From assembly GCF_009905215.1 (NCBI RefSeq), contig NZ_CP047593.1, positions 2,546,900-2,610,899 on the forward strand: DNA of 64,000 nucleotides. Direction: 5' to 3'. Positions 27,197-42,948 of the stretch are shown here, piece after piece. The translations under genes were made by a program, and so were the position numbers. Origin of the DNA: Tichowtungia aerotolerans (lineage in GTDB: Bacteria > Verrucomicrobiota > Kiritimatiellia > Kiritimatiellales > Tichowtungiaceae). The first letter of the stretch is position 1; each line of letters opens with the position of its first letter. Under the pieces are notes generated by a model. The model was given only the letters and a program-made list of their open reading frames with translations, had not been told where the DNA came from and did no database searches.

Positions 27197-27649
27197 ATGA
27201 CCTGTCACACCTGTCCCCATTATGAAGATGTCATGCGCGGTGTTTACAGTGCCAACCCTTGGCGTGAGTCTCCCTGTGCGAAGTGCAATTTGAATGAGAT
27301 CGCGCCACATGAAGTTCCCCTGGATGAAGAGCATCCCCCGGCGGAGGCGTTGTCTACTCCCGCTGATGGTACGGATGTGTCCACCTTGCTTCCGGCAGAT
27401 GTCCTGACGCAGTTTGTTACCGGTTTTCTTTCTCTTCCCCCCGAGCAGCGCGATGTGGTTTCGTTGCGGTATCAGGGTTTGCCGTACAAGGAGATTGCCG
27501 CACGTCAGGGTGTGACGACCCAGTGCGTGGAGAAGCGTCATCGCCTTGCTATGCGCGACTGGCCGGTTTTGGAGTCGTTGTTTCCGTTTAAAGTTGCCTG
27601 TCGTAACTATCGTCGTTCCCGTAAGCATGAGCAGAAATCCTGCCAGTGA
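27197..27649 (+). CDS. Sigma-70 region-4-like regulator with Cys-rich N-terminus
   Basis: A 150-residue protein with a GGAGG site before the start. The N-terminus has Cys pairs (CHTCPHY, SPCAKCN) that could form a zinc site. Residues ~78-118 match sigma region 4 (LPPEQRDVVSLRYQGLPYKEIAARQGVT...VEKRHRLAM). Its place between replication and head genes suggests a late-gene transcription activator, like small sigma-like phage regulators. The C-terminal ~20 residues are basic. Confidence 0.7.
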   Translation: MTCHTCPHYEDVMRGVYSANPWRESPCAKCNLNEIAPHEVPLDEEHPPAEALSTPADGTDVSTLLPADVLTQFVTGFLSLPPEQRDVVSLRYQGLPYKEIAARQGVTTQCVEKRHRLAMRDWPVLESLFPFKVACRNYRRSRKHEQKSCQ

Positions 27650-27911
27650 ATACACTGTCATGATTTACTGCTGCCAGAACCCGCCCAACCAGCCGTCTTT
27701 TGTCATGGCTTCATTCGTACCTCATTCAGCCCTGTCAAAACCCGGCTCGTTGGGCTTCCACGGCCCTGCGGGCGTTCGCGCCTTAGTCGGCTCAGAAATT
27801 GAGCCTTCATCCTCATTCATCCGGTCGTACAACCGACCTCCTTATCAGTCGTCCGGTTGTCCGACCTCCTTCATTCGGCTTTCAGTCTCAAATTCTTCGC
27901 CTTGGCGCTCA

Positions 27912-27934
27912 TCGGGTGGCGGAACAAGCGCCAC
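27912..27934. repeat. 23-base exact repeat with hairpin, copy 1
   Basis: TCGGGTGGCG-GAACAAG-CGCCAC: GTGGCG pairs with CGCCAC. Second copy at 28176-28198. Confidence 0.85.
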
Positions 27935-28074
27935 ACTACGGAGCCCAGCCAGCCGTCTTTTGTTTCCGGTCTGCCTGCTGCTTTCATTCGGAATACCTCA
28001 TTCCAGCATCCGGCTTACCGTCTCCAAAATCCGGCTCGCTGGTCTCCGCCTCAGTCGGGCTTTAGAACCGTCGG

Positions 28075-28133
28075 CAGACTGAACAAAGACCGGGTCCCGG
28101 TTCCTACGGAACCCCCGTTCTTTGTTCAGACTG
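28075..28133. ncRNA. Long hairpin, possible structured RNA
   Basis: CAGACTGAACAAAGA (28075-28089) pairs with TCTTTGTTCAGACTG (28119-28133) with one mismatch. Inside it GGTTCC and GGAACC pair over TACG. The near-perfect outer stem suggests a conserved RNA or DNA structure. No family recognised. Confidence 0.45.
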
Positions 28134-28175
28134 CTCTCCGGTTGGCCCTCCCTCGGTTCGCATCCGCTCAGATTG

Positions 28176-28198
28176 TCGGGTGGCGGAACAAGCGCCAC
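28176..28198. repeat. 23-base exact repeat with hairpin, copy 2
   Basis: Identical to 27912-27934. Confidence 0.85.
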
Positions 28199-28390
28199 CT
28201 TGTCGCCCGTCAAGCGTCCGGGACGGCGCACCGGATCAGCCTTGGCGGGGCAGTACTGTTGACTCGTGCCTCATCAACAGTCCTGCCTGATCCGCCAGCC
28301 TGACCGGCACACCGTCATACCGGCCGCTTCACGGGCTCCTACTTCGGAAGCCCGCTGATTCCCGGCACATCATGTGCTGGTCCAGTCCAA

Positions 28391-28420
28391 GGTGGGGCGA
28401 CACCTCCGGGGGAGCCGTCT
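28391..28420. repeat. 30-base exact repeat, non-coding copy
   Basis: Identical to 23843-23872 in the polymerase gene. It is followed directly by the TCTGATCTCCGACC-type repeat. Confidence 0.85.
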
Positions 28421-29527
28421 CCCTCTGATCTCCGACCTTTGATCTCTGATCTCTGGCCCATCACATCATGTCCCGGGGCGGACTTCCTCAGGCTCCCCGC
28501 CTGTTGGCGGGGCTCCCTCCGGGGGGCGGACTGGCCGCTTCAGTTCCAACGCCATGCTTACTGGAATTCAGCGGCCTTCACAGGCCACTCAATCGCGCTG
28601 GGCGCTCAATCGCGGCCGAGGCAGCTTGCAGCGGCGGGCACGTTCACCGGCCATCCAACCCCGGTTCGAATACTCACCGGGGATCGGCAACATCAGGCAT
28701 AATTGCCCAATTATGCGACGTGTCCTTTGGATTGGCCGGTTCACTCAACAGAACTCGTTCTGTCAGGCCCGCCTCGCGCTCACCGTTCGAGGCTCATCCC
28801 TTCGGTCTTCGGAGGTATTGTCTCGTAGCATAAAAGGGGGAGGGCCCCCAGCTCACGGAGGCGGGAAATTGGAGTCTCCAGGCTGAAAACCCAGCCTGAT
28901 GGTTTTGCAACACCCACCGACAGGCGGCAAACAGGCCATTGCAAAAACCGTCTCAAATTGCCCGCCACCGGCCCCGTGCCCGTCCCCCTCGGCCTACGGC
29001 CTCACCCCCTCCCACCCAAAGCTGTCATGCTTTGTGCTGGCTCGTGACCTCGCAGCACAAAACCTGCCAGCCCCTTGATTAGCACAAGTCCAGTGGGTGG
29101 GGCTCACTTCAGCGTCAGGCCCTGCGCAATGCGAACCCGGATTCCGGTTGTGCACCCCGCAAGGGGGAGCCAAACCGGCCGGCAGGGCGAACCGCATTCG
29201 CCCATCCGACCTCCGGCTAAGCATTGCTCCGAGCCCGCCGCTTCCGTTCACCCCATCAATACTCCGTCGGCGGACAACCACCCACCCGCGTCCGTGAATC
29301 GTTGATCATCCGTCATCCGACCTCTGACCTCCGCCTTCTGTCATCCCCTCCCTGGCCGCCGCCGCCGGAAACTCGCCGCAATAGCGGCGCGGCCTACGGC
29401 CTCCCCTGCCGGGGGCAAGGTATGTTCCATCAGCAGCCCCTGAACACCTCACGGCGAGATCCGCCGGGCAGAAGCCGCAGGCCCACACACGCGCAAGCCC
29501 CGGCGCAACCGCGCTTCGCACGGCTTT

Positions 29528-29579
29528 CCTCGGAAAATGTGGAAGCGGCTTCCAGCCGCTGGCCCTCTCTTTTTTCCAA
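29528..29579. repeat. Direct repeat of ~50 bases, copy 1
   Basis: Shared with 29706-29755 except for one extra T. It contains the hairpin AGCGGCT-TCC-AGCCGCT and ends in a TTCCAA palindrome half. Confidence 0.85.
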
Positions 29580-29901
29580 GCTCCGGAAATCGGCGGTCCG
29601 ATTTTTCCAATGCTCGGAAAAAGCAGCCCAAAAAATTCCAACGTCTGGAAAAAGTCCGCTGGATTTTTCCAACCCTCGGAAAAGCGAACCCCCATTTCTT
29701 CCAGACCTCGGAAAATGTGGAAGCGGCTTCCAGCCGCTGGCCCTCTCTTTTTCCAACCTCTGGAACGGCGAGCCCTCAAATTTTCCAGTGCCTGGAAATT
29801 CGCGTTCATTCGCGCAATTCGCGGTCAGAAATCTTCCAGAGTCCGGAAAGCGAAGCCGAAAATCTTCCAACCTTCGGATGAAATTTTTCCAGACCCCGGA
29901 A
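29571..29901. repeat. Dense array of ten TTCCA/TGGAA palindromes
   Basis: Imperfect palindromes of the form TTTTTCCA-n(4-6)-TGGAAAA begin near 29571, 29602, 29636, 29664, 29697, 29747, 29781, 29832, 29863 and 29884, so one every ~20-50 bases. Arms are conserved and the centres vary. Same family as the single copies in coding genes. Confidence 0.85.
29706..29755. repeat. Direct repeat of ~50 bases, copy 2
   Basis: Second copy of the repeat at 29528-29579. Confidence 0.85.
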
Positions 29902-30169
29902 CACCCGCGCCTGCGGGCCGCGGAGGGAGGGGGTGTCCGCAGGACGGGGGTGGGTGGACATCGAAGATGCATCGACTGACTGGAACGATGGAGTCAGCTC
30001 TGTTTCAGAATGTTTCACATTCTTGGTTTCCCCCCAGAGGGACCCCCCTTCCAGGCGCGTCGCGGGCGCGCCGCGCCCCCTGTTTCCTATTGATCTGATC
30101 AATGCGATGAAACGGTCTGAAACAATATGGCCGTCCGGTTGATTTGGGCTCTTTAGGTAAGGAGACATT

Positions 30170-30556
30170 ATGCCTTTTGAACCCGGACAATCAGGAAACA
30201 TCGAAGGCCGCCCTAAAGGAATCAAGAGCGGCCGCATGCTCGCGCTCGCTGAGCTCGACTCCATGCTCAAAGACGCGGGCGTCATGGAAACGCTTCGCGA
30301 CGGTCTCCAGAAGGCACTTGAAAAAGACCCTTCCTGGTTCTTCCGTCGCATCATCATGCCGCTGCTTCCGAGGGAAGCGACGCTCTCACTTGAAAACAAC
30401 GGAGAGTTCAAATGGAAACTCCTCAAAGATACACTCCCCATCGAGGACAGTCCCGAATACATCTCTCAAAGGCAAGATTCCGCGTTGTCTGCACCGGCAG
30501 GCGCTTCGGCAAAACCCTCTGTCTTGCCCGAGAAGTTGCCGAGAAGGGAGTCCTAG
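30170..30556 (+). CDS. DUF5681-type protein, likely small terminase subunit
   Basis: A 128-residue protein with an AAGGAG site upstream. It opens with the DUF5681 signature FEPGQSGNIEGRPKG, common in proteins directly upstream of phage large terminases. The middle is helical (MLKDAGVMETLRDGLQKAL). The last 48 codons overlap the large terminase gene in another frame. The likely role is DNA recognition for packaging. Confidence 0.75.
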   Translation: MPFEPGQSGNIEGRPKGIKSGRMLALAELDSMLKDAGVMETLRDGLQKALEKDPSWFFRRIIMPLLPREATLSLENNGEFKWKLLKDTLPIEDSPEYISQRQDSALSAPAGASAKPSVLPEKLPRRES

Positions 30557-31771: not shown

Positions 31772-32104
31772 ATGAAGAAAGTCGCAATCATCCGGTGTCA
31801 GCAAACTGAAGACATGTGCCCCGGCAATACCGATTTCAAAGTTGCCAAAGAAGGCAAACTCGCCTTTGAGGAAACTGGCCCCGTCGAAGTCATAGGATTT
31901 ATGTCTTGTGGTGGTTGTCCAGGAAAACGAGCTATAGCCCGAGCAAAGCTCATGGTTGAACGTGGAGCAGAAGCAATCGTCTTCGCATCCTGCATTTCCA
32001 AGGGCAATCCGATAGGTTTCCCATGCCCGCATTATGCCAACATGAGAGATGCCATTATTAAGAAACTTGGCCCAGAAATCCAAATTATTGAATACACTCA
32101 TTGA
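31772..32104 (+). CDS. CGGC-domain protein (phage moron)
   Basis: A 110-residue protein with an AAAGGAAG site. It contains the motif MSCGGCPGKRAI (residues ~47-58) and other Cys (RCQQTEDMCPG, FASCISKG, FPCPHY), matching the CGGC domain, which probably binds metal. It is followed by a hairpin and a terminator, is lower in GC than its neighbours and interrupts the terminase-portal order. These are the marks of an independently acquired moron. Function unknown; metal or redox sensing is a guess. Confidence 0.8.
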   Translation: MKKVAIIRCQQTEDMCPGNTDFKVAKEGKLAFEETGPVEVIGFMSCGGCPGKRAIARAKLMVERGAEAIVFASCISKGNPIGFPCPHYANMRDAIIKKLGPEIQIIEYTH

Positions 32105-32131
32105 GAATTTTTAACAACAACCTGAACCGTA

Positions 32132-32194
32132 TTTCAAAACCGCCGCATCGCTATGGTTTTGAAAACTGGGGAGACCGTGTCGGTCTTATTATTA
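32132..32194 (+). terminator. Two hairpins after the CGGC gene
   Basis: TTTCAAAACC (32132-32141) pairs perfectly with GGTTTTGAAA (32155-32164). Then AGACCG-TGT-CGGTCT (32172-32186) is followed by TATTATTA, which resembles a rho-independent terminator. Confidence 0.6.
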
Positions 32195-32202
32195 AGTCAT
32201 TT

Positions 32203-32490
32203 TTATCTGCCCCTCAAAATCTGATCCACATCCGACTGCCGGATAAACACCCGCCCGCGCACCCGGCACGGAACCAGCTCCCCGTCCTGCAGCATCCGAT
32301 CCACCGTCGGCACGGACACATGTAACGCCGCCGCCGCTTCTTTGCGGCTCAGTAGCTTTTCCTGCTCCGGTTCAGGCAGGAACTCTTTTTCGACCAGCAT
32401 CTCTTCGATGTCCTGAACCGTCAGGTGATGTTCCGTGTACGGCTGAAGCAGAATCACAACCGCTTCCCCGATTTCTTTCGGCACTCTCAT
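32203..32490 (-). CDS. Helix-turn-helix (excisionase/MerR-like) protein
   Basis: A 95-residue protein on the minus strand with a GGGGGAAG site before the start at 32490. The C-terminal half is an HTH: LLSRKEAAAALHVSVPTVDRMLQDGELVPCRVRGRVFIRQSDVDQIL. The N-terminal half is helical. It is transcribed against the head operon from between the CGGC moron and the portal gene, so it probably regulates the divergent late genes or acts in excision. Confidence 0.75.
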   Translation of the reverse strand: MRVPKEIGEAVVILLQPYTEHHLTVQDIEEMLVEKEFLPEPEQEKLLSRKEAAAALHVSVPTVDRMLQDGELVPCRVRGRVFIRQSDVDQILRGR

Positions 32491-32565
32491 GACTTCCCCC
32501 TTTCGAAAAACGCTTCCGCTCCTGCCCCGTGCAATCCAGCGGCAGAGCCGCATATTTCACCGGGG

Positions 32566-32602
32566 CCGGTTGATTCCGCCTCTTTATATAGAGGCAATCA
32601 AC
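32566..32602 (+). promoter_or_regulatory. 25-base boundary repeat, copy 1 (before portal)
   Basis: CCGGTTGATTCCGCCTCT, then TTATATA. Here it forms a full inverted repeat: GTTGATT...GCCTCT-TTATAT-AGAGGC-AATCAAC, ending one base before the portal ATG. Copies 2 and 3 lie at 33745 and 34255. Confidence 0.75.
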
Positions 32603-32603
32603 T

Positions 32604-33752
32604 ATGCGCTACATCTGCTCAACCAAAGACCACGGCTACCGCGACTCCACCAACCCGCTGCGCGGACTCAACATGCAGCGGCTTGTCGCCCTGCAGGAAT
32701 CCGGCGAACGCGGCGAATACGCCGACTTGATGTGGTTTTACTACTACATGGAACGCTCCGACGCGATGATCCATTCGGTCATCCAGCGGCGCCGGGCCGC
32801 GTTGCTCTCTCTCGACTGGGATGTGCGCATCGTTTCGCAGGAAGATGACAACCCGCTTGCTCAGGAACAGGCCGATTTCCTGCGCATGGTCTACGATAAC
32901 ATCGACAACTTCCGCGAAGCCGTCTCATTTCTCTTCACCGGCTTTTTCCGTGGCTTCGCCCACCTCGAAAAGCATTGGAGCCCCGGCGGGCTGATCGAAC
33001 GGCTGGAGCCGGTTGAACAGTGGTTTTGGGTGCGTGATGGCCTGTTCGGCGATTGGGAATACAACGCCGGAGCCGTGTCCGGTCATCGGCGCGGCGAAAC
33101 GATCAAGCCGGAAAACTTCATCACCCTTGAAACCGCCGCGCTCGACCGCATCCTCAGCGTTTTGTATCTGCGCAAAAACCTTTCCCAGACCGATTGGGAT
33201 TCGTTCCTGTCGGTTTACGGCATCCCGTCGATTTTCTTGGTCGGACCGCCCAACGCCGACGACGCCAAACAAAAGGAATATCAGGCCGTCGCCGAGCAGA
33301 TTCTATCCAACGGGCGAGGATTCCTTCCGCACGAAAGCGATATCAAGTTTGTGACCGGGGGAGGGGAGAAGCCGCCGTTCCATGATCAGATCAAATATCT
33401 CGATGAGCAGATCACCATTGCCGCCACTGGCGGACTGCTCACTATGCTTGCCCAGCCCGGCAGCGGAACGCTCGCCGGCAGTGCTCATCAGGACAGCTTC
33501 TTGCAGATTGCCAAGTCGGACGCGGTCACCCTTGCGGGTGTTTTGCAGAACGCGATTGACGTTCCGCTGCTTGCCGAATACTTCCCCGGTCAGCCCCCGC
33601 TGGCGTACTTTGAATTCTCGCCCGGACTCAATCACGCCACCAGCCAGGTAGTGCAGGACGCCATCGACCTTAAAACCGCCGGTATGCAGATCGATCCCGC
33701 CGAACTTTCCGAAAAGACCGGCTACACCCTCACTGAAAAACAATCCGGTTGA
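32604..33752 (+). CDS. Portal protein (Mu gp29-like, DUF935)
   Basis: A 382-residue protein with the DUF935 pattern: NPLRGLNMQRLVALQESGERGEYADLMWFY-type N-terminus, SVIQRRRAALLSLDWDV near 58-74, a YGIPSIFLVGPP core near 206-217 and a SAHQDSFLQIAKSDA segment near 292. It forms the dodecameric DNA gate of the head. GAGG nine bases upstream, inside the boundary repeat, is the probable ribosome site. Its stop codon lies inside the second repeat copy. The family is shared with Mu-like phages, but no Mu transposase and no Mu gp30-type minor head protein follow. Confidence 0.9.
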   Translation: MRYICSTKDHGYRDSTNPLRGLNMQRLVALQESGERGEYADLMWFYYYMERSDAMIHSVIQRRRAALLSLDWDVRIVSQEDDNPLAQEQADFLRMVYDNIDNFREAVSFLFTGFFRGFAHLEKHWSPGGLIERLEPVEQWFWVRDGLFGDWEYNAGAVSGHRRGETIKPENFITLETAALDRILSVLYLRKNLSQTDWDSFLSVYGIPSIFLVGPPNADDAKQKEYQAVAEQILSNGRGFLPHESDIKFVTGGGEKPPFHDQIKYLDEQITIAATGGLLTMLAQPGSGTLAGSAHQDSFLQIAKSDAVTLAGVLQNAIDVPLLAEYFPGQPPLAYFEFSPGLNHATSQVVQDAIDLKTAGMQIDPAELSEKTGYTLTEKQSG

Positions 33753-33769
33753 TTCAGCCTCTTTATATA
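33745..33769 (+). promoter_or_regulatory. 25-base boundary repeat, copy 2 (portal stop / protease start)
   Basis: CCGGTTGATTCAGCCTCT then TTATATA. Its TGA ends the portal gene and its last A is the first base of the protease ATG. No separate ribosome site is visible. Confidence 0.8.
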
Positions 33770-34830
33770 TGAACCTTATTCTAAATCGGTTTTTTGAACT
33801 TCCCGAGGACGGCTGGTATCAGCTCGCCCCGCTTGGTGAGTTTCCCCATGCCGCCGCCGGAGTCACCCAGATCATTGACGAGGCCGCTTGCTCTCGGATG
33901 GTCGCAACGTTTGAGACAATCAAAAACGCTTCCGATAATTTCCCCGGCCTGCTGATCGACTTCGATCATTTCTCACTCGATGCAGCCAAGCATTCCGAAG
34001 CCGCAGGCTGGATCACCGATTTGAAATTGGTACCCAACGGCGGCGGGCTGTTCGCCCAGATCCGCTGGAGCGACATCGGTGAGGCCGCCGTGAAAGGCGG
34101 ACGCTACCGCTTCCTGTCCCCGGTCTGGGCGAAGTCGGACTGCGAAGACCTTGGAAACGACCGCCTTCGTCCGGTTCGTCTGTTGAATGCTGCCGTAACC
34201 AATGACCCCAATTTAAAGGGGATTTTGCCCCTTTCAAACCGCAATTCCGAGAGGCCGGTTGATTCAGCCTCTTTATATAGAGACCCGTTAACTCAAAAGG
34301 AGAAAACCATGCAACCTGTCATTGATGCTTTGCTCAATAAACTGAATCTGCCCGCCGATACCGCCGAGGCCGATCTGATCGCCGCCATCGAAAACATGGC
34401 CACGGCGGATGAAACTGCTGCGCTCACCAACCGGGCGGAAACCGCCGAAAGCTCGCTCGCCGACCTTCAGACCGCCCAGCTCGAAGCGGACGCCGATGCC
34501 TTCCTCGAAGACAACGCCGCCCTCATCGAAAACCGCGACGAAGTCCGCGCTCAGTTTATTGAAAACCGCACCACCACCGAGGCGGTATTCAAAAACCTCA
34601 AGGCTCCCAACCCCGATACTCCCACACCCACCGACCCCCATACTTCCCATGCCCGCCCGCAGCCTCTCCACAACCGTGCTTCAAAGGTTGCAGCGACCCG
34701 TAACCGTGACGCCGCCGCCTCTGAATCCAAGGCGGTCAAAATCCGCAATCGCACGTCCGAAATCATGAAAACGGAAAGCATCGGCTACCCCGCCGCCTTC
34801 CGCCGCGCCGAACAGGAATTCACTGACTAA
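33769..34830 (+). CDS. Mu-like head maturation protease (I protein) with C-terminal scaffold
   Basis: A 353-residue protein. The protease half (1-160) shows the Mu I-protein pattern: LLIDFDHFSLDAAKHSEAAGWI (~63-84), KGGRYRFLSPVW (~106-117) and NAAVTNDPNLKGILPL (~142-157). The C-terminal half is helical, Ala/Glu-rich and scaffold-like. Between the halves the third boundary repeat is read through in frame (PVDSASLYRD), followed by a good internal ribosome site and ATG at 34309. This repeats the Mu design of a protease with a nested scaffold made from an internal start. Confidence 0.87.
   Translation: MNLILNRFFELPEDGWYQLAPLGEFPHAAAGVTQIIDEAACSRMVATFETIKNASDNFPGLLIDFDHFSLDAAKHSEAAGWITDLKLVPNGGGLFAQIRWSDIGEAAVKGGRYRFLSPVWAKSDCEDLGNDRLRPVRLLNAAVTNDPNLKGILPLSNRNSERPVDSASLYRDPLTQKEKTMQPVIDALLNKLNLPADTAEADLIAAIENMATADETAALTNRAETAESSLADLQTAQLEADADAFLEDNAALIENRDEVRAQFIENRTTTEAVFKNLKAPNPDTPTPTDPHTSHARPQPLHNRASKVAATRNRDAAASESKAVKIRNRTSEIMKTESIGYPAAFRRAEQEFTD
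34255..34282 (+). promoter_or_regulatory. 25-base boundary repeat, copy 3 (before nested scaffold)
   Basis: Same sequence as copy 2 plus AGAG. It lies in frame in the protease gene, 27 bases before the internal scaffold start. Confidence 0.8.
34309..34830 (+). CDS. Nested scaffold protein (internal in-frame start)
   Basis: A 173-residue product from an internal ATG preceded by AAAAGGAGAAAACC, a stronger site than that of the full-length gene. Its first ~100 residues form an Ala/Glu-rich helix (NRAETAESSLADLQTAQLEA). Then comes a Pro/Thr linker (NPDTPTPTDPH) and a basic tail, the usual build of capsid scaffolds. In Mu the scaffold is likewise made from inside the protease gene, so the proposal follows known biology, but separate expression here is inferred. 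Confidence 0.7.
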   Translation: MQPVIDALLNKLNLPADTAEADLIAAIENMATADETAALTNRAETAESSLADLQTAQLEADADAFLEDNAALIENRDEVRAQFIENRTTTEAVFKNLKAPNPDTPTPTDPHTSHARPQPLHNRASKVAATRNRDAAASESKAVKIRNRTSEIMKTESIGYPAAFRRAEQEFTD

Positions 34831-34841
34831 CCGAACCGTAC

Positions 34842-34862
34842 GGGCAATCCTCGTGGCTGCCC
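34842..34862 (+). promoter_or_regulatory. Intergenic hairpin before the decoration gene
   Basis: GGGCA pairs with TGCCC around ATCCTCGTGGC. Similar in sequence to the hairpin at 35325. Confidence 0.5.
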
Positions 34863-34892
34863 ATAATTTAAACACCACCCAGGAGAAATAAA

Positions 34893-35318
34893 ATGAGTCA
34901 ATCAAATGTAAAATTCGGTCCCGTCCCGTTCAACTGCGGCGAAGATCTCACCGCGGCCAACGACCACCTTGTGGTCCTCGGCCATTCCACCGGAACCCCG
35001 CAGATGACTCTGCCGGCTACCGAAACCGACAACGCGTTTTACCTCGTGCTCGAAGGAGCCGCCGCCGGTGAAACCGGCTACTTCCTTCCGGTGACTGCCG
35101 CCGCCAATGTCCGGCTCCCGCTCATCGGAACCTGTAACCCGGGCGATACGCTCGTGCTGGCCGATCCGGCCGTCGAAGGACAGCCCGGCAAGGTGACCGT
35201 GCTTCCCGAGGCCGCCGGGACCTACCGCGCCGTTGCCATCGCGGAAGAGCAGGGCATCGACACCCAGCTCGTGCTCGCCCGTCCCGCCAACCTCGGAACC
35301 ATCACCGTAACCGAATAA
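34893..35318 (+). CDS. Head decoration-like protein (DUF2190 type)
   Basis: A 141-residue, Ala/Thr/Gly-rich, beta-predicted protein directly before the capsid gene, with a CAGGAG site. Residues ~60-135 (GETGYFLPVTAAANVRLPL, GDTLVLADPAVEGQPGKVTVLPE) resemble the DUF2190 / capsid-cement fold that stabilises heads. Hairpins flank it on both sides, which may set its mRNA level. Confidence 0.7.
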   Translation: MSQSNVKFGPVPFNCGEDLTAANDHLVVLGHSTGTPQMTLPATETDNAFYLVLEGAAAGETGYFLPVTAAANVRLPLIGTCNPGDTLVLADPAVEGQPGKVTVLPEAAGTYRAVAIAEEQGIDTQLVLARPANLGTITVTE

Positions 35319-35324
35319 ATGTAA

Positions 35325-35345
35325 GGGCATCCCTCGTGGGTGCCC
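35325..35345 (+). promoter_or_regulatory. Intergenic hairpin before the capsid gene
   Basis: GGGCATCC-CTCGT-GGGTGCCC, an eight-pair stem with one G-T, ending 11 bases before the TAGGAG site of the capsid gene. Confidence 0.55.
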
Positions 35346-35362
35346 AAAAATAGGAGAAAATC

Positions 35363-36304
35363 ATGTCTAGACTCACCACCATCAGTTCCAGCCCGATGCT
35401 CCGCCAGTTCGCGCAGGGTGCCGCACAAAGCGCCATCATGCCCGTGGCGGACTTCATCGCTCCGACCATCGAAGTCCCGACTTCGACCGGGCGGTTCAAG
35501 AAATACACCGAGAAGCACCGCTTCCACATTCCGAAGACGCTCCGTACGCTCGGAGGTCGCGCGTCCGAACTGCGCTTCGAAGTGACGGATAAAACCTTCA
35601 ACTGCGAACCGCACGCTCTCGATTATCCCGTGGATAATCTCGAGCAGCTCGAAGCCGAAGGCCTCGAAAACATGCTTCGTGAAGGTGCGGTTGCCGTGGC
35701 CGAAGTCGCCGCGCTCGCTCACGAAAAAACCGTGATCGATCTTGCGGTTGATGCGGTCGGCCCCGGCACCGATGCCACCTGGAACGATGCCGCCGATCCG
35801 GTTGCCGACATTGATGACTCGATCCTCGACGTCATCAAAGCCTGCAAATACGGCTCGCTCATGAACATCGGGGTGCTGTTCGGTGCATCCGCATGGAACG
35901 TGTTCAAGAATCAGGCCAAGGTTCGCGGACGCTTTGTCGTCGGCAGCGGTGCCCGCAGTGGGGTGGGGCTGGCCGTCCCGACGCAGGCCAACGTTGGCGA
36001 AATGTTCATCGGTTCGCCCGAAGTGCGCACCAGCTACATGGTCTTCGACGATGCGCCCGAGGGCATCGACGAGGAAGTCAAATTCCTGCTCGACAGCGCC
36101 GTGCTCGTCTTTGCCCGCAAAGCCCAGCCGACCCGCCGTGATCCGTCCTTCATGAAGACCTTCCGTCTCATGAACCAGTTCATGGTTCCCGGCTCCTACC
36201 AGCGCGACGACGGCCGCGTCGAAGTCGCCAAGTTCGACTGGTCCGAAGATGTCCAGGTCTCCAACGCCAACGCTGCCAAGCGCATCAACGTCTCCGCCAG
36301 CTAA
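35363..36304 (+). CDS. Major capsid protein (HK97 fold)
   Basis: A 313-residue protein in the usual place after protease/scaffold and decoration genes, with a TAGGAG site. The length and layout fit HK97-type capsids of the Mu-T/gpE kind: an N-terminal arm (SSPMLRQFAQGAAQSAIMPVADFIAP), an E-loop-like stretch rich in charged residues near 40-75, a spine helix region (~85-125), and a beta-rich domain with VGSGARSGVGLAVPTQ near 195. No internal frameshift. Confidence 0.87.
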   Translation: MSRLTTISSSPMLRQFAQGAAQSAIMPVADFIAPTIEVPTSTGRFKKYTEKHRFHIPKTLRTLGGRASELRFEVTDKTFNCEPHALDYPVDNLEQLEAEGLENMLREGAVAVAEVAALAHEKTVIDLAVDAVGPGTDATWNDAADPVADIDDSILDVIKACKYGSLMNIGVLFGASAWNVFKNQAKVRGRFVVGSGARSGVGLAVPTQANVGEMFIGSPEVRTSYMVFDDAPEGIDEEVKFLLDSAVLVFARKAQPTRRDPSFMKTFRLMNQFMVPGSYQRDDGRVEVAKFDWSEDVQVSNANAAKRINVSAS

Positions 36305-36319
36305 ACAGGGTGGGGCCTG

Positions 36320-36345
36320 CCCCGTGGAGTCTTACTCCACCGGGG
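36320..36345 (+). terminator. Strong hairpin after the capsid gene
   Basis: CCCCGTGGAGT-CTT-ACTCCACCGGGG with one bulged C. It has no T-run, so it may be an mRNA-stabilising or attenuating structure instead of a full terminator. Confidence 0.5.
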
Positions 36346-36352
36346 TGGGTCG

Positions 36353-36388
36353 CCTTTAACGATTTGAACCTGCAACGATTTCAACGGT
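36353..36388. repeat. TTYAACG-type leader repeat (copy 4)
   Basis: TTTAACGAT, TTGAACCTG, CAACGAT, TTCAACGG units between the capsid hairpin and the next gene. Confidence 0.65.
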
Positions 36389-36395
36389 AAAACCC

Positions 36396-36806
36396 ATGGA
36401 CGCCGAAGACTATTGGACGACGCTAACCAGCGAGTACACGCGCAACCGCATGAGTCCTCAGCTTGCGGCTGACTTCGCCGCATGGATCGCTGAAGACTGG
36501 ACCCGTGAAGGCCGCGTTGCGGATCACAACCAGATGGTCACCCATGAATTTCGGGGAGCGCTTCGGTCTAATAACTGGCTGGTCGATGAATCCTCCGAGC
36601 TGTCCATCCCGCGGTCCTGCGTGCGTCATGCGCTGTCCATTGTCTTCTTCGAGTTGCGCAAGGATATGGGCATTGCTCAGACCGAATCCGAAAATATCGC
36701 CGCTACCCGCGCCGACATCTTTTTGCGCAACATCTGGACCGGCAAAGTCAAGGCGTCGCTTGTCTATCACGAACAAACCCCCACATTCAAAGGAGCTGCC
36801 CAATGA
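36396..36806 (+). CDS. Possible head-completion / adaptor protein
   Basis: A 136-residue, mostly helical protein right after the capsid gene. The C-terminal pattern (PRSCVRHALSIVFFELRKDM..., then ATRADIFLRNIWTGKVK) resembles gp6/Mu gp36-type connectors, in which a helical bundle ends in a short FLxxIxxGK motif. If right, it would seal the portal for a tail. It is the only candidate connector in the element. Overlaps the next gene by ATGA. Confidence 0.45.
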   Translation: MDAEDYWTTLTSEYTRNRMSPQLAADFAAWIAEDWTREGRVADHNQMVTHEFRGALRSNNWLVDESSELSIPRSCVRHALSIVFFELRKDMGIAQTESENIAATRADIFLRNIWTGKVKASLVYHEQTPTFKGAAQ

Positions 36807-37102
36807 ACAGCCTTCACTCTCTGGAAAGCGGCACAGTCTCCGTCACCAACACGCAGAAACATGCGTCCTGGGTGCCGGTTGCCGTCCTGTTCCGCTTTGA
36901 TGCGCCGGTTACAGGAACCGTGACCATCACCCGTACCACCGGAGAAACCGTCTTTCAACTGGCAACGGTTGAGCTGGCTGATAATCAGTCCGCAGCCTGG
37001 ATTCCCGAAACGGATTATAGGTTTCACATAAACGACGTGTTCACCGTCACCTCGACGGCCACCAACGGCACCGTCGAAATCATCCGAAAGGCCGCCCAAT
37101 GA
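36803..37102 (+). CDS. Small beta-rich phage protein
   Basis: A 99-residue, Thr/Val-rich protein without a recognised family (VTGTVTITRTTGETVFQLATVEL). It looks like a single beta-sandwich, so it may be a virion surface protein. It is coupled by 4-base overlaps to both neighbours. Confidence 0.5.
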   Translation: MNSLHSLESGTVSVTNTQKHASWVPVAVLFRFDAPVTGTVTITRTTGETVFQLATVELADNQSAAWIPETDYRFHINDVFTVTSTATNGTVEIIRKAAQ

Positions 37103-37635
37103 CAACTTCATGGATACTCGACGGCCAGACGGCCGGTTCTGTTCCCGCCAGCGGCGGCGCCGAGCTGCTGGTCGATCTGAAACTTAACAGCAGCGGCGGC
37201 TCTCCGTTTCTTATGGGCCAGTCTACCTACGTCGGGTGCGGATTGTTTAAACCGGCCGTTGTTTCCGACCCTCAAAGCTGCTGGGCATCAGATGCGTTTA
37301 CAGCTCCGAGTGACGGCGTGTATGAGTTCGTTGTTGAGGGCGCTGATTTACAGCAAATCGTCACAACCTTGTTCGTTCCGACTGATCCGTTTGGCTGCGG
37401 TGTCATGATTAACGACACCTTCATCTATTACTCCTCAGCACCCGGCACCAGTGATGCCGGCGACCCGATCGCAACGCAGTTTTGCATTCAGCTTGAACTG
37501 TCTCAGGGCGATACCTGCAAGATCGTATCCCTTACCCGATGGATTCTCTTTCACAACCCGCATCCGGTATATACAGACGTTCACGCGGGGCCGGCAGACA
37601 GCAAAATCAGGATCTACAAATGCGCGATCTCGTAA
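37099..37635 (+). CDS. C1q/TNF-like jelly-roll protein, possible virion spike
   Basis: A 178-residue protein. The segment AFTAPSDGVYEFVVEGADLQQ (split across ~70-90) and the following strands ending CIQLELSQGDTCKIV match the C1q-like jelly-roll pattern, which occurs at the tips of phage fibres and in bacterial surface proteins as trimers. No fibre shaft is attached. It may be the receptor-binding knob or a head-surface spike. Assignment is by pattern only. Confidence 0.5.
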   Translation: MTTSWILDGQTAGSVPASGGAELLVDLKLNSSGGSPFLMGQSTYVGCGLFKPAVVSDPQSCWASDAFTAPSDGVYEFVVEGADLQQIVTTLFVPTDPFGCGVMINDTFIYYSSAPGTSDAGDPIATQFCIQLELSQGDTCKIVSLTRWILFHNPHPVYTDVHAGPADSKIRIYKCAIS

Positions 37636-38252
37636 ACCAGAGAGACAGGACTGCGGAAAAAGAGTTTCTTGCCCGCCTGTGCGTCATCGGTTCGTTCCCG
37701 CGCTCCGGCTCGCACTGGACGCGCCGGATGATTGCCGAAATCATTTCCCTGCGCACTGGAATTTCTGCTACGTTCGGACATTCCTTAAACAAGCTGGCCG
37801 GGTTTACCCAGGCAGTGAACGTGGGCAACTGGAAGGATCATAAAGATCCGATCCTCTGGGCGGCCCACGATTTACGGATTGCCCCTGATCATTGGAAAAT
37901 CTATCTGCGCCGCGACTTTGAAGAGGTGTTCCGCTCCACACAGAAAGCGGAAACAGAACTGCCGGATTGCTGGTGGGGCGGCAGCCGGGATGAGTGTTTC
38001 AGAAAATGGAAGCGCCACGTTGCGGTCGGATGCTCCCGCGCCAAATTGGTCGTTGATTACAACATGACCCGCGCCAACCCCGAAACGACCGTCCGCGCAA
38101 TCTGCGAGGTTCTGGAAATGAACCCGACCGATGAAGAGGTCGCCCGCGCCCTGTTCGCAGGTCGCCGCGAAAACATGCTCAAGGAGCAGGCCGATGCGGA
38201 ACATTTAACCTGGTCGATGGTGAACACGGAGGATGCATATGAAAATTGTTGA
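37620..38252 (+). CDS. Sulfotransferase-domain protein
   Basis: A 210-residue protein. The ATG at 37620 overlaps the end of the previous gene by 16 bases; an upstream in-frame ATG at 37539 would add 27 residues lying inside that gene. The PAPS 5'-phosphosulfate loop reads IGSFPRSGSHWTRRM (residues ~21-35), and the 3'-phosphate motif reads IYLRRDFEEVFRSTQK (~94-109). A typical closing segment is YNMTRANPETTVRAICEVLEM. The family moves sulfate from PAPS to a sugar, protein or small molecule. It may sulfate host surface glycans or a virion protein, a notable idea in a host with secreted sulfatases. Confidence 0.75.
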   Translation: MRDLVNQRDRTAEKEFLARLCVIGSFPRSGSHWTRRMIAEIISLRTGISATFGHSLNKLAGFTQAVNVGNWKDHKDPILWAAHDLRIAPDHWKIYLRRDFEEVFRSTQKAETELPDCWWGGSRDECFRKWKRHVAVGCSRAKLVVDYNMTRANPETTVRAICEVLEMNPTDEEVARALFAGRRENMLKEQADAEHLTWSMVNTEDAYENC

Positions 38253-38727
38253 AACAGGATTTGGTAAATGGAAGAAGGGCGGGCAGTTCTACAAAATCGC
38301 ACCGTCTGCCGGACAGACATTGGCGCAGATGCGGGCCGAAGCCGAGGCTGCCGGCTATTCGCTGGTTACGCCGTCTGCACTGGAAAAGGCGGCCATGCTC
38401 AAAAAGCGCGAGATTGCATCCGCCCGCTACGACGCCGAATTTGCGGGCTTCACCGACCCGGCCAGCGGCCTGTTCATTCGAACCGACGAGCGCACCCGCT
38501 CTCTGCTCACCGCCGCCAAGCTTCGCGCTCAGGCCAATGCTGCATACCTCGTCGAAAACTGGAAAACCGCAGACGGCTCATTCATTACGCTCGATGCGCC
38601 GACCATCATCGCGCTCGAAGCCGCCGTGCACGACTTCATCGAAGCCCAGTTCGCCAAAGAGGCGGCACTCGTCACCCAGATCGACTCCGCCACCACCACC
38701 CAAGAGGTCAACGCCATCACTTGGTAG
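38239..38727 (+). CDS. DUF4376-like phage protein
   Basis: A 162-residue protein; the ATG at 38239 is preferred since GGAGG lies six bases upstream (the ATG at 38233 touches it). Pattern: KREIASARYDAEFAGFTDP...GLFIRTDERTRSLLTAA, ...SFITLDAPTIIALEAAVHDF, ...LVTQIDSATTTQEVNAI, as in DUF4376 proteins that accompany phage tail fibres. It is the one hint of tail or fibre biology here. Exact role unknown. Confidence 0.65.
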   Translation: MKIVETGFGKWKKGGQFYKIAPSAGQTLAQMRAEAEAAGYSLVTPSALEKAAMLKKREIASARYDAEFAGFTDPASGLFIRTDERTRSLLTAAKLRAQANAAYLVENWKTADGSFITLDAPTIIALEAAVHDFIEAQFAKEAALVTQIDSATTTQEVNAITW

Positions 38728-38788
38728 GGCGTGCCCGCCGGGCGCGCCGCTTTTTCGCCAGGCTCCATGCCCCATGCGCTCTGCACCT

Positions 38789-38822
38789 TCAACCCTTCAA
38801 CCTTTAACGATTTTAACGGTAT
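38789..38822. repeat. TTYAACG-type leader repeat (copy 5)
   Basis: CAACCCTTCAACCTTTAACG plus TTTTAACGG immediately before the amidase gene start at 38827. No usual ribosome site is seen here. Confidence 0.6.
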
Positions 38823-38826
38823 CGCC

Positions 38827-39273
38827 ATGCGCTTACTACAGTATGAGGGAATCAGTAATTTGAGTCGCGCCACCCGGTTCTTCACATGGAGCCGCACCAC
38901 GCACACCGCCATCGAATTCGATGACGGGCGTGTCTGCGAAGCCTGGAAATGCCCGGAGCAGGACGGGGTACGCATCGTCTCATCGCTCCATGCGCAGCAC
39001 ACCCCCGGAACCATCGTAAAAGCCTATCACCTGCCGGAGCTGTCCGCCATGCAGGCCGAAGACTTCATCTCATGGCTGATCGGGCAGGAGGGCAAGCCGT
39101 ACGCCTTTTGGGGCGGCATCACCCGCTTTCTCACCCGCCGCGACCCGCAACCCTACAACCCGCAAACCTTCCGCATCGAAGACTACGACCCGAAAAACTG
39201 GTTCTGCAGCTGTTTGGCCTTTGCCGGCCTCATGCATGTTGACTTCAAACTCCTCGACCGCATCCCCCCGTGA
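38827..39273 (+). CDS. Papain-like amidase (NlpC/P60-YiiX type), interrupted by an in-frame TGA
   Basis: 148 codons to the TGA at 39271. The pattern of the permuted papain-like amidases is visible: RFFTWSRTTHTAIEFDDGRVCEAW (His near 26) and WFCSCLAFAGL (Cys near 130). After the TGA the same frame stays open for 47 codons (RVSPGHINLSPRLKLDEI...) with a strong C/G third-base bias, and ends at 39415-39417 where its TGA overlaps the next ATG as ATGA. The original or read-through product would be ~195 residues. The TGA may be a nonsense mutation or a read-through site. The likely role is cell-wall amide cleavage in lysis or entry. Confidence 0.7.
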   Translation: MRLLQYEGISNLSRATRFFTWSRTTHTAIEFDDGRVCEAWKCPEQDGVRIVSSLHAQHTPGTIVKAYHLPELSAMQAEDFISWLIGQEGKPYAFWGGITRFLTRRDPQPYNPQTFRIEDYDPKNWFCSCLAFAGLMHVDFKLLDRIPP

Positions 39274-39413
39274 CGCGTCTCCCCCGGCCACATCAACCTC
39301 TCCCCCCGCCTCAAACTCGATGAAATCATTCGCACAGGTGGAGCGGACTCTCCGAGGACGCTTTCTGTAGGCCGTGTGCCCTCACGCGGCGCTCTTAAAC
39401 CTGCGGTGACAAC

Positions 39414-39671
39414 ATGACCAAAACCCCCAACAACCACCAACCGGCAACAAACAACTGCGGCAGCAAGCTGCCGGACGGTTGCCAGCAGCGCTTCGACCGA
39501 ATCGATGAGAAATTGGAGTCTATCCACACTCAGGCCAGCAAAACCAATGGCCGCGTCACCAAACTGGAAAAGTGGAACCTAGTCTTTCTAACCAGCCTGA
39601 TCGTTCTGCTCTCCACCAATCCGACCGGCCTGATCACCGTGCTGAAAACCATCACGTCCTGGATTCGATAA
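39414..39671 (+). CDS. Holin/XhlA-like small membrane protein
   Basis: An 85-residue protein: a low-complexity Asn/Gln/Pro N-terminus (in-frame CAACAACCACC-type repeat), a coiled coil (QQRFDRIDEKLESIHTQASKTNGRVTKLEKW, split ~24-54) and one hydrophobic helix (~55-78, LVFLTSLIVLLS). This is the layout of haemolysin XhlA / holin-accessory proteins placed beside cell-wall hydrolases. Coupling to the amidase frame supports a lysis pair. Confidence 0.6.
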   Translation: MTKTPNNHQPATNNCGSKLPDGCQQRFDRIDEKLESIHTQASKTNGRVTKLEKWNLVFLTSLIVLLSTNPTGLITVLKTITSWIR

Positions 39672-39733
39672 AGATGTGTCGCCGGTATCACCACCGCTCT
39701 GCTGTGTAAAAAATGAATCTGCTGCGGTTCGCG

Positions 39734-39783
39734 ACTTCCAAGGGTTGGAAAAATACGGTAGATGTTTTCCGATGTTTGGAAAT
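39734..39783. repeat. Two palindromic elements at the AlbA_2 gene start
   Basis: ACTTCCAAGGGTTGGAAAAA at 39734-39753 and TTTTCCGATGTTTGGAAAT at 39765-39783. The second contains the likely start codon ATGTTTGG of the next gene. Confidence 0.75.
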
Positions 39784-41199
39784 TACGATACAGAACAGTT
39801 GCGGGAGCTGATTCGCGGGGGCGAAGGGCTGACACTGGAATTCAAGACCTGCCGCAGTGCGATCAACCGCGATGTGTACGATACCGTCTGTGCGTTTCTC
39901 AACCGTCATGGCGGTATCATTCTGCTTGGGGTGGAAGACGACGGCAACCCGGCGGGAGTTGACCCGACGGCCATTGATCAAATCCGAAAGGATTTTGTAA
40001 CGGCAATCAATAACCCGCAGAAAATCAGCCCGCCCACCTATCTTTCCATTGCTGAAACCGAGCTGGACGGAGCCAAACTGCTGCATGTCTATGTTCCGGA
40101 GAGCTCGCAGGTTCATCGCTGCAATGGCCGAATTTACGACCGCAACGAAGATGGCGATTTGGACATTACGAACCACACGGCGCAGGTTGCCCGGCTGTAT
40201 CAGCGCAAACAGGCAACCTACAGCGAAAATAAGGTCTATCCGCACATTCAGATTGAAGACCTCCGGGCCGACCTGATTGAGCGCTGCCGGAAACACGTCC
40301 GGATTAATCGTAAAAATCATCCGTGGGTGGAAATGGACGATGCGGAGCTGGTCAAAAGTGCTCAGCTCTACCAGACCGACCCAGAAAGCGGCAAGCAGGG
40401 CGTAACACTGGCCGGAGTTATGCTGCTTGGAACTGATTACCAGATATTGCAGGCATGTCCTGCACACCGTACCGACCTGATTCTGCGTAAAGTCAATGTG
40501 GATCGCTATGATGACCGCGACCTGGTTCGCACCAACCTGATCGACAGCTACGACCGGATTCTCGACTTCATCCGCAAGCACCTGCCCGACCCGTTCTATC
40601 TGGAAGGAACGGATCGAAAAAGCCTGCGCGAAGCCATCTTCCGCGAAGTGGCGTCTAATCTGCTGATTCACCGTGAATATGCCAGTGGCATTCCTGCTCG
40701 ACTCGTGATCGAATACGGCAAAGTCACCTCCTTTAACGCCAACCGCCCACATGGATTTGGCGCGCTCGACCCTGAAACCTTTGCGCCGTACCCGAAAAAC
40801 CCCGTCATCGGCGCATTCTTCCGGGAGATTGACCGGGCCGATGAACTCGGCTCCGGCATGCGCAACATGGTGCGTTATGGAAAAACCTATGGCGGAACCG
40901 ATCCGCAGCTCATCGAAGGCGATGAGTTTAAAATGATCATCAGTGTCCCGGAATTTGAGGAAAAAGGGGCAGGGCAGAGTTCACCCACAGTGTCGGGGAA
41001 AACGTCGGGGAAAACGTCGGGGAAAATTTTAAAATTTGTCGGGGAAAACGGACAAATAACGATTCCTGAATTGGCTGAAACGATTGGGGTTACAGAGCGT
41101 TCAGTAGAGCGGGCAATTCAAAAATTACAGATGCAAGGTTTATTAAAGCGTATCGGTCCCGCCAAAGGTGGCCGATGGGAAGTCGCGGGCAAAGAGTGA
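39772..41199 (+). CDS. AlbA_2 / ATP-binding winged-helix regulator
   Basis: A 475-residue protein; the ATG at 39772 matches the family start (NYDTEQLRELIRGGEGLTLEFKTC), while upstream ATGs run through repeats. N-terminal AlbA_2 (Schlafen-like) domain (~1-130, LEFKTC, GGIILLGVEDDG), a central HATPase_c_4-type domain (~270-390, REAIFREVASNLLIHREY), a slipped 12-base repeat giving SGKTSGKTSGK, and a C-terminal winged helix (ITIPELAETIGVTERSVERAI). Such proteins act as nucleic-acid-binding regulators and sometimes in defence. At the element's right end it may be cargo or a lysogeny regulator. Confidence 0.8.
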   Translation: MFGNYDTEQLRELIRGGEGLTLEFKTCRSAINRDVYDTVCAFLNRHGGIILLGVEDDGNPAGVDPTAIDQIRKDFVTAINNPQKISPPTYLSIAETELDGAKLLHVYVPESSQVHRCNGRIYDRNEDGDLDITNHTAQVARLYQRKQATYSENKVYPHIQIEDLRADLIERCRKHVRINRKNHPWVEMDDAELVKSAQLYQTDPESGKQGVTLAGVMLLGTDYQILQACPAHRTDLILRKVNVDRYDDRDLVRTNLIDSYDRILDFIRKHLPDPFYLEGTDRKSLREAIFREVASNLLIHREYASGIPARLVIEYGKVTSFNANRPHGFGALDPETFAPYPKNPVIGAFFREIDRADELGSGMRNMVRYGKTYGGTDPQLIEGDEFKMIISVPEFEEKGAGQSSPTVSGKTSGKTSGKILKFVGENGQITIPELAETIGVTERSVERAIQKLQMQGLLKRIGPAKGGRWEVAGKE

Positions 41200-41364: not shown

Positions 41365-42717
41365 TCATGCGGCTAATTGGGCTTCGATTTCGGCCAGCCG
41401 TCGAAGAATTGCAGCCTTCTCTAAATCCTCACCGTATTCGAGGAGCCCGCGTATTTTCTTGAGCAGCTCTTCTTCCTTGCCCGCCATTGCCTCCGGCGGC
41501 GGCTTGGTGACTGCGACCTCTGCCTCCTGTCCCCCGGTCAACATCTTGGGCATGGCGGTTTCGAGTGCCGTCTTGAACGCCTCCTTGCCGGGCCGGAAAT
41601 AGTGTTTCAGCACCACATCAACCGTGGAGTGACCCGTCACCCGCCGAACCAGCTCCATCGGCACACCGGCCGACAGCGCCATCGTAATCCATGTCGTACG
41701 CAGCGAGTGGAATCCTTTAATAGAAGCCTTCTGCATTCCGTCAGAGCGATCGACGAGTGTCTCAATATCTGCCGCTTTGAGAACCTGTTTGACCCGCCAC
41801 GACATACCGAAATTCTTTTTTTCATAAAGGGCTGCAACCTCCGGAAACACGTATTCACTTTTATGCGGCTGTTTGTCGATTTCCTCGCGCAGGATCGGGA
41901 ATAGGGGGATCTCGGCGGTTTCACCCGTCTTGGAGGTCGTCACCGTGATGAACCTCTCCTGTAGGTCAACATCCGTCCATTTCAGCCGGCAGCAGTCGCC
42001 CTGGCGCATGGCCGTGCACATCCCTACCAGAAAAACCGGTCGCATGATTTTATCGGCGTGTTTCAGGATTTCATTCAGTTCTTTTTGGGTGAACGGCTGA
42101 TGATGCACCGTCGTTTTGATCTTGGTCGGGCATCCCGCAAACGGATTGCTGATGATTCCGCCATGAATGCCGACCTTTTGAAACAGCCCTTTGAGCAGGT
42201 GCAGTTTGTCGTTGTAGGTGGCGGCGGCATAGCCGGACTCTTCCAAATGCCGGAGCCAGTGTTCAGCGATGCGCGGTGTTACCTGTCCCAGTGTGCGGAC
42301 TGCCGGGTATTCTTTTTCGATGAATTCCCGAAACTTGCGGAGCGTACCGCACTGATTCTTTTCCCACAGAGCCGACCGTTTGCGGCGCTGGGGTAGGTTT
42401 TTCCAAACCTGTTCGATGTCTTTGAGTTCGACCTGCCGGACATCTTCACCCGCTTTAATCTCATAGAGCTCCTGCAGGTGGTGTGAAGCCGACTTTGTGC
42501 TTCGGGCATCTGCTTTCAACTCATCCAGCTTGAGCTGTGCTTTCATCCGTGAGCGCTCGAAAGGCACATCACTGACTTCTTTCAGGGATGCGGGAATCGT
42601 TCCTTCGATTGCGACTCCCAAATTCGTGAAGTGCCGCTTGCCGTCGATAATGAAATCTCCGTACCACCATTTTGATCGGATTGAACCGTCTTTTCGCCGA
42701 GTAATTTGCAGTCCCAT
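41365..42717 (-). CDS. int: Tyrosine recombinase (integrase)
   Basis: A 450-residue phage integrase. The N-terminal arm-binding region and SAM-like core-binding domain cover ~120-215. The catalytic set is complete: Arg in GMCTAMRQGDCCRLKW (~249), Lys in TVTTSKTGETAEIP, H-x-x-R in KGFHSLRTTW (~341-350), His in VTGHSTVDVVLKHYF and Tyr in that same HYF. It is the rightmost element gene, transcribed leftward and ended by the terminator at 41321. The nearby tRNA-Pro is a usual integrase target, but its own terminator lies between the two, so the attachment site must be elsewhere, perhaps in 42718-42830. Confidence 0.93.
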   Translation of the reverse strand: MGLQITRRKDGSIRSKWWYGDFIIDGKRHFTNLGVAIEGTIPASLKEVSDVPFERSRMKAQLKLDELKADARSTKSASHHLQELYEIKAGEDVRQVELKDIEQVWKNLPQRRKRSALWEKNQCGTLRKFREFIEKEYPAVRTLGQVTPRIAEHWLRHLEESGYAAATYNDKLHLLKGLFQKVGIHGGIISNPFAGCPTKIKTTVHHQPFTQKELNEILKHADKIMRPVFLVGMCTAMRQGDCCRLKWTDVDLQERFITVTTSKTGETAEIPLFPILREEIDKQPHKSEYVFPEVAALYEKKNFGMSWRVKQVLKAADIETLVDRSDGMQKASIKGFHSLRTTWITMALSAGVPMELVRRVTGHSTVDVVLKHYFRPGKEAFKTALETAMPKMLTGGQEAEVAVTKPPPEAMAGKEEELLKKIRGLLEYGEDLEKAAILRRLAEIEAQLAA

Positions 42718-42831
42718 TTGTTGCCTCCTGATTCCGATTTAATTTGCAACCCCCTTAACCAAAGAGGGCGAATCAACCGGGCAAAACAGAAGTTTTCACA
42801 GAACACCGCCTTGCCCGGCGCAGAATCAGGA

Positions 42832-42871: not shown

Positions 42872-42948
42872 TGGTCGGGGTGACATGATTCGAACATGCG
42901 ACTTCTACGTCCCGAACGTAGCGCTCTACCAGGCTGAGCCACACCCCG
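42872..42948 (-). tRNA. tRNA-Pro (anticodon CGG), CCA encoded
   Basis: Minus-strand sequence starts CGGGGTGTGGCTCAG and ends CACCCCGACCA. Acceptor stem CGGGGTG/CACCCCG, anticodon arm CTACG-TTCGGGA-CGTAG (anticodon CGG), and T loop TTCGAAT. 77 bases with CCA. Confidence 0.97.

Follow-up and report, generated by a model that had tools for sequence, protein, structure and literature searches.

The window, the whole 64-kb stretch of DNA that was analysed, corresponds to positions 2546900-2610899 of a single-contig genome of 3.88 Mb, and the element of interest within it is a dormant bacterial virus (prophage), called A here. On its plus strand lie sig (27197..27649), which encodes a 150-residue protein with a CxxC..CxxC N-terminus and a sigma region-4 helix-turn-helix (Pfam Sigma70_r4_2, E 5e-9) and is the proposed reader of the boxes described below; a terS-like gene (30170..30556), named by its position and with a weak DUF5681 match below the cut-off; a portal gene of the Mu type (32604..33752, PF06074); and a protease gene (33769..34830, PF10123) with an internal in-frame scaffold start at 34309. 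A tyrosine integrase gene (41365..42717, PF00589) runs on the minus strand from an ATG at 42717. The gap between sig and terS, 27650-30134 in A and 1.7-2.5 kb long across elements, holds no consistent gene and shows piecewise DNA similarity among eight elements; it might contain a long non-coding RNA or regulatory DNA. Between terL and portal, an apparent insertion (31772-32553) carries a 110-residue reading frame and, on the opposite strand, an excisionase-like helix-turn-helix protein. Few tail genes can be found in 36396-39671: when nine late-region reading frames (34893 to 39668) were run against PHROGs, only 38233-38727 matched tail (fibre) families, and A may have no tail or a borrowed one. 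A Schlafen/AlbA-type protein with winged-helix matches is encoded at 39676-41199, adjoining integrase, and another short inverted repeat (GGGCAnnCCTCGTGGnTGCCC type) stands before the decoration and capsid genes (34840-34870 and 35290-35350) as well as in the scaffold leader of a sister prophage (B, L017 ~10030).

Three more related prophages reside in the same genome, B (~0.69-0.71 Mb), C (~3.38-3.39 Mb) and D (~2.95 Mb), together with a partly similar region, E (~2.91 Mb). Aligned pieces of A and its sister elements share 66-89% identity. The tRNA genes beside the integrases differ, being Pro-CGG in A (42872-42948), Val-CAC in B, Val-GAC in C and Ala-GGC in E (loci L017, L018, L020). Searching with portal for relatives returned records named Kiritimatiellales and Pontiellaceae. 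Against 50,697 GenBank phage records, all matches to the portal of A fell below 60% identity, with the best among those listed at 23-27%, and the phage group of A appears to be without a close relative in that collection.

Five copies of a short, oriented box are found in the window. A preliminary description had noted three of them, and all three are present, at 32566, 33745 and 34255 on the plus strand, the copy at 32566 differing by one base; the total is five, as the terS copy (30135, plus strand) and the integrase copy (42780-42756, minus strand) had been overlooked. The terS box (30135..30159, TTGATT at 30139-30144) precedes the ATG at 30170 and has a predicted RNA 5' end at 30159. The portal box (32566..32590, TTGATT at 32570-32575, predicted 5' end 32590) lies just before the ATG at 32604, where, as had been suggested, a hairpin can form between its 5' half and the sequence on its 3' side, and it has stayed beside portal despite the apparent insertion upstream. 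Also as described, the protease box (33745..33769) supplies both the portal stop codon, TGA at 33750-33752, and the A of the protease ATG at 33769, which is the predicted 5' end of what would be a leaderless mRNA. The scaffold box (34255..34279, predicted 5' end 34279) indeed lies in the protease reading frame, and its 25-base form ends 29 nt before the internal ATG at 34309. On the minus strand, the integrase box (42756..42780, TTGATT at 42776-42771) has a predicted 5' end at 42756, upstream of the ATG at 42717. At up to 3 mismatches, an 18-base core of the box occurs 5 times in the window, where 0.04 occurrences are expected. A matrix built partly from these five sites themselves, when scanned across the whole window, picked out the five boxes at scores of 30.8-38.3; no other position reached the listing threshold of 9.

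The preliminary description had asked for a genome-wide search for the repeat. At up to 2 mismatches the core occurs 8 times in the 3.88 Mb, four times in A and four times in the sister prophage at 692-702 kb, with 0 matches in the control; it is thus confined to prophages. Two box classes can be distinguished, with the rough consensus CCGGTTGATTnnnnCTCTTTannTA in A and B and CCGTTTGATTTTTnnnCTTAGGnCA in C and D. A looser pattern covering both classes gave 32 genome matches versus 3 in the control; 18 of the 32 fall in the five places A-E, and the remainder look like background. In each of A, B, C and D, a box precedes terS, portal, protease and scaffold. The integrase box is found in A, B, C and E; the D stretch yielded no matched integrase start.

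Comparison of homologous head operons, also called for earlier, places boxes at the same gene starts in sister prophages, related prophages and virus contigs. Across 43 stretches (A-E and L051-L088), some of which overlap or share a genome so that the counts are not independent, TTGATT is found in the 100 nt preceding the start codon in 26/39 portal, 21/31 protease, 13/18 scaffold, 15/25 terS and 4/4 integrase genes. Over the same distance it was found before none of the terL (0/27), capsid (0/20), decoration (0/23), primase (0/6) or sig (0/10) genes, and shuffled upstream stretches predict fewer than one TTGATT per gene. Not all homologous genes were found to have a box, and a well-covered element has 4-5 of them. 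Three virus contigs (G195, G196 and G197) carry an extra box before a small unnamed gene downstream of the capsid genes. This gene and integrase leave the earlier proposal that the repeat balances head proteins unsupported.

The geometry of the box is strict. Its core can be written (G/T)TTGATT-N6-CTT-N4-Y|R, that is, TTGATT with a phage-specific G or T in front, CTT after a six-base spacer and, after four more bases, a pyrimidine followed by a purine. A set of 81 sites was assembled, of which 4 were dropped before logos were drawn and 5 before column counts and matrices were made; the counts of G and T boxes given below use these matrices. When bases are numbered from the first T of TTGATT, all 77 of the 77 sites left for the logos have a purine at base 21, among them the 29 with an ATG at least 40 nt away. 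In the column counts, the conserved letters besides TTGATT are C13 (69/76), T14 (59/76), T15 (74/76), a pyrimidine at 20 (66/76) and the purine at 21 (76/76). Start codons, picked by nearness to homologous starts, lie at or beyond base 21 and pile up exactly at base 21 (9 sites); two apparent starts at 18 nt, in L086 and L064, are probably miscalled. The aligned columns (76 of the 81 sites) show no sigma-70-type -10 hexamer 16-18 bp after the -35-like box, and a canonical sigma-70 promoter was rejected on this ground. The boxes of C and D are GC-rich directly before base 21, so melting there is not favoured. The spacing typical of sigma-54 promoters does not fit either.

Ribosome sites follow the same ruler. 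For this count 7 of the 81 sites were dropped, namely the five above plus two portal starts 82 and 87 nt away. A Shine-Dalgarno sequence of at least 4 letters is present at 34 of the 35 sites whose start is 24-39 nt away, beginning at base 20-22 (at 25 in L059), and at 22 of the 26 sites whose start is at least 40 nt away, where it is positioned further downstream. Only 1 of the 13 sites with a start 18-23 nt away has one. Among control genes, such a sequence is found in 25/27 terL, 23/23 decoration and 20/20 capsid genes. Genes whose ATG sits at base 21 thus lack a Shine-Dalgarno sequence, and later-starting genes mostly have one, downstream of the box. The purine at base 21, the start positions and the Shine-Dalgarno pattern are what a transcript 5' end at base 21 predicts. 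Initiation and cleavage at base 21 would fit this leader pattern equally well, and the RNA-processing site offered in the preliminary description predicts the same 5' ends as a promoter, two readings that sequence alone does not separate.

A candidate reader of the boxes is sig, which in A sits between primase and terS and is similarly placed in other elements. Members of its family are 145-195 residues long (253 for the longest ORF call) and combine CxxC...CxxC with a sigma region-4 helix-turn-helix. Pfam matches are to sigma region 4 and ECF models only, the ECF match covering the C-terminal part alone; region 2 has no Pfam match in sig, and PHROGs gave no match. The predicted structure has high confidence over the region-4 part but is poor over the first third; among the structure matches listed, many are to sigma factors or sigma region 4, and no E-value falls below 0.008. 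No match to sig turned up by tblastn in the 50,697 GenBank phage records, and when viral contigs were searched with the sig alignment, the only four returned were ones already in the comparison. A region-4 protein is encoded in 10 of 11 genomes or contigs searched; the only one without it, G203, has no box either. Another, G202, carries one-base-longer TTGAATT boxes at both of its sites (L097 11366 and 13049) and also encodes a region-4 protein. Among 194 related genomes, the regulator was found in 17, portal in 39 and both in 12. PF00940, the T7-type polymerase, has no match in the host genome or in any control genome. Literature searches, with most subscription journals outside their scope, returned no report of this box or protein and no paper on Kiritimatiellota prophage promoters. 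We take sig to be the likely recogniser of the boxes.

The base before TTGATT can be used to link the two. It is G in 18 of 19 boxes from four elements (A 5/5, B 5/5, G196 5/5, G003 3/4) and T in all 34 boxes of eight others (C, D, G194, G195, G197, G008, L054/G019 and G025). G003 was scored as G despite the T in one of its four boxes, and in G003, as in G025, sig and the boxes lie on two contigs of one genome. In an alignment of sig from these 12 elements, five columns separate the G and T groups, four of them as fixed alternatives (Cys/Leu, Val/Ala, Lys/Met and Arg/Lys), all within 11 columns of the recognition helix. The lysine-type helix goes with G and the methionine-type with T, a natural pair that occurs among the four prophages of one chromosome. 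The lysine/methionine position presumably meets the upstream edge of the -35 box, where the changing base lies, as judged from sigma-DNA structures. No labeling other than the observed one, out of 495, gives more than 2 fixed sig columns; by the looser count, 7 of the 495 (the observed included) reach 5 separating columns, the highest being 9. Separating columns number 0 each in portal, protease, terS, terL, capsid and decoration, 1 each in scaffold, primase, the exonuclease-like protein and the 21932 protein, 2 in the 19880 protein and 7 in DNA polymerase, the last from only 7 elements; a thirteenth protein query, present in two elements of one group only, is uninformative for this split. Head genes ignore the division: the portal of B is 97% identical to that of C, a T element, and 85% to that of G196, a G element. 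Within sig of B, the N-terminal part is nearest G194, a T element, and the C-terminal half nearest A, G196 and G003. In the G group the C-terminal halves of sig share 80-93% identity, so that one event may account for the G/T switch. The odd box of G003, a T, C/D-like box lying 108 bp upstream of a G, A-like box before portal (L140 2698 and 2806, minus strand), can be read as a relic of an earlier specificity.

Because the base before TTGATT varies in step with the DNA-reading helix of sig, the box is probably an 'on' switch for late genes. Our favoured reading, which we hold to be somewhat better than an even bet, is that the boxes are late promoters read by sig, or equivalent boxes that set 5' ends, often with an overlaid hairpin that would mask the Shine-Dalgarno sequence. 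The shared late promoter proposed earlier is the best supported of the options then offered, on gene placement, base-21 geometry, leader pattern and the matched variation of sig and box. The same comparisons give good support to a regulator-box pair for late genes, and from it we infer that sig binds and activates, that RNA is initiated rather than cleaved at base 21, and that host RNA polymerase is used. Under this mechanism the boxes would switch on the late phage genes plus integrase and set their mRNA 5' ends, with the purine at base 21 as the likely transcription start. Encoded just before the late genes, sig would read the boxes by gripping the TTGATT end with its recognition helix, as a sigma factor does on a -35 box. 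At many leadered sites the 5' half of the box could pair with the ribosome site just downstream, so that read-through RNA would have this site masked and RNA begun at base 21 would have it unmasked.

The same pairing can be taken as the mark of an element that works purely as RNA, in which either a transcribed hairpin, controlled by an RNA-binding protein, would conceal the ribosome site or cleavage would create the 5' ends at base 21; we judge this unlikely. A hairpin test used 77 of the 81 sites plus six added ones, 81 after removal of duplicates. Pairing of the 5' half with the downstream region is better in 67 leadered elements than in all 5000 permutations, a figure that is inflated because permutation ignores kinship. 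Of the 60 pair cells in six distant protease sites, 58 are maintained, ten of these by G-U, and cleavage, as noted, predicts the observed leaders. Against a purely RNA-level element, the protease copies of A and B keep the 25-base sequence without a 3' arm, the C/D-like elements have no excess of pairing over permutation (p 0.88), and the stem register shifts between classes while the spacing from TTGATT to base 21 is constant; the changing base, moreover, tracks a DNA-binding helix. Pairing shows a weak excess in A/B-like leadered elements (p 0.018) and is not clear in 14 short-leader elements (p 0.07). Rfam 15 at gathering score matched only tRNAs in the window and six loci, and a known RNA family was rejected on that basis. 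We take the hairpin to be a layer added over the box and not universal, which retains the suggested translational control hairpin as an overlay at leadered sites and not as the shared feature of all copies.

Alternatively, the boxes could be roadblocks or operators, where sig or some other DNA-binding protein would halt elongation while the phage is dormant. Asymmetric sites that are oriented with transcription, lie at gene borders and differ by class in step with a DNA-binding protein are features of stoperators (PMC6550527). We nonetheless give this alternative only a small chance, as there are only 4-5 boxes per element, they are tied to the downstream start even where other sequence is inserted upstream, and sig is placed after the early genes like a late activator; blocking elongation would also leave the missing ribosome site at base-21 starts unexplained. 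Near-identical copies inside one prophage could be expected of a spreading or duplicated sequence, or of chance, that happened to generate gene borders, as the preliminary description had allowed. Recurrence at the same homologous gene starts in many elements of diverged sequence, with the core confined to prophages, contradicts this idea and makes it extremely improbable. Termination-reinitiation was rejected too, since only certain protease sites use the TGA of the box as the stop of the gene upstream, the scaffold boxes are read through in frame, and the terS boxes of C and D follow a stretch without a conserved gene. The A/B repeat also has an apparent likeness to the 3' end of 16S rRNA and to the transposon target TTGAT, but this was dropped, as it fades in the other classes.

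What tells against a sigma-like promoter is that a region-4 domain 20 bp from the start is a non-standard sigma geometry, and a region-4 protein would have to act at that distance. A bolder version of our reading can be offered tentatively, at well under even odds: a CxxC-CxxC (zinc-ribbon-like) head joined to a region-4 helix, with no region 2, might position polymerase so that RNA starts 20 bp from a -35-like box with no -10, giving mRNAs that are leaderless or begin with the ribosome site, and with read-through RNA masked by a hairpin of the same box. This would be an undescribed mode of late initiation. Whichever form holds, an unexplained repeat becomes a testable regulator-box pair with a natural one-base difference and a predicted promoter geometry unlike any used by ordinary sigma factors. 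If true, it would be a new kind of late switch and an explanation for leaderless structural genes.

Parts of this arrangement have counterparts in known systems. In phage T4 late genes, the promoter lies inside a hairpin over the ribosome site, such that read-through RNA is masked and RNA begun within the hairpin is not; here the promoter sequence and factor are different and not all sites have the hairpin. Stoperators of cluster A mycobacteriophages, up to ~30 elongation-blocking sites bound by the immunity repressor, are likewise short, asymmetric, oriented with transcription and varying in step with a DNA-binding protein between phages (PMC6550527), whereas here 4-5 sites lie just upstream of gene starts and the many sites of a stoperator system were not found. 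The gene transfer agent (GTA) activators GafA and GafYZ regulate phage-like structural gene clusters, and GafA is tentatively similar to sigma DNA-binding domains; unlike sig, they act at a cluster promoter with -10 and -35, and the available portions of these papers describe no box repeated for each head gene (PMC9638019, PMC11150451). Repeated sites are also a feature of RinA and Ltr, late transcriptional regulators of Firmicutes phages, where a single late promoter, which has a TATA box, is preceded by the repeats (PMC13123087). In A and its relatives several gene starts each have a box of their own, no such -10 is present, and sig, with no PHROGs match and only sigma region 4 and ECF models in Pfam, was not placed in the RinA or Ltr sequence families. 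Those regulators have no known sequence relation to bacterial factors (PMC13123087), whereas sig has sigma region 4. The phage sigma factors of phiEco32 and 7-11 bind core polymerase and use the promoters GTAAtg-(16)-aCTA in 7-11 and a single element 6-8 bp from the start in phiEco32 (PMC8948821). In contrast, sig shows only region 4 and no recognisable region 2, the part responsible for melting and reading the -10, and its box runs right up to the proposed start. The likeness lies in phage-specific late promoters placed at several late genes and matched to a phage sigma-like protein, with a specificity that differs between relatives (PMC8948821).
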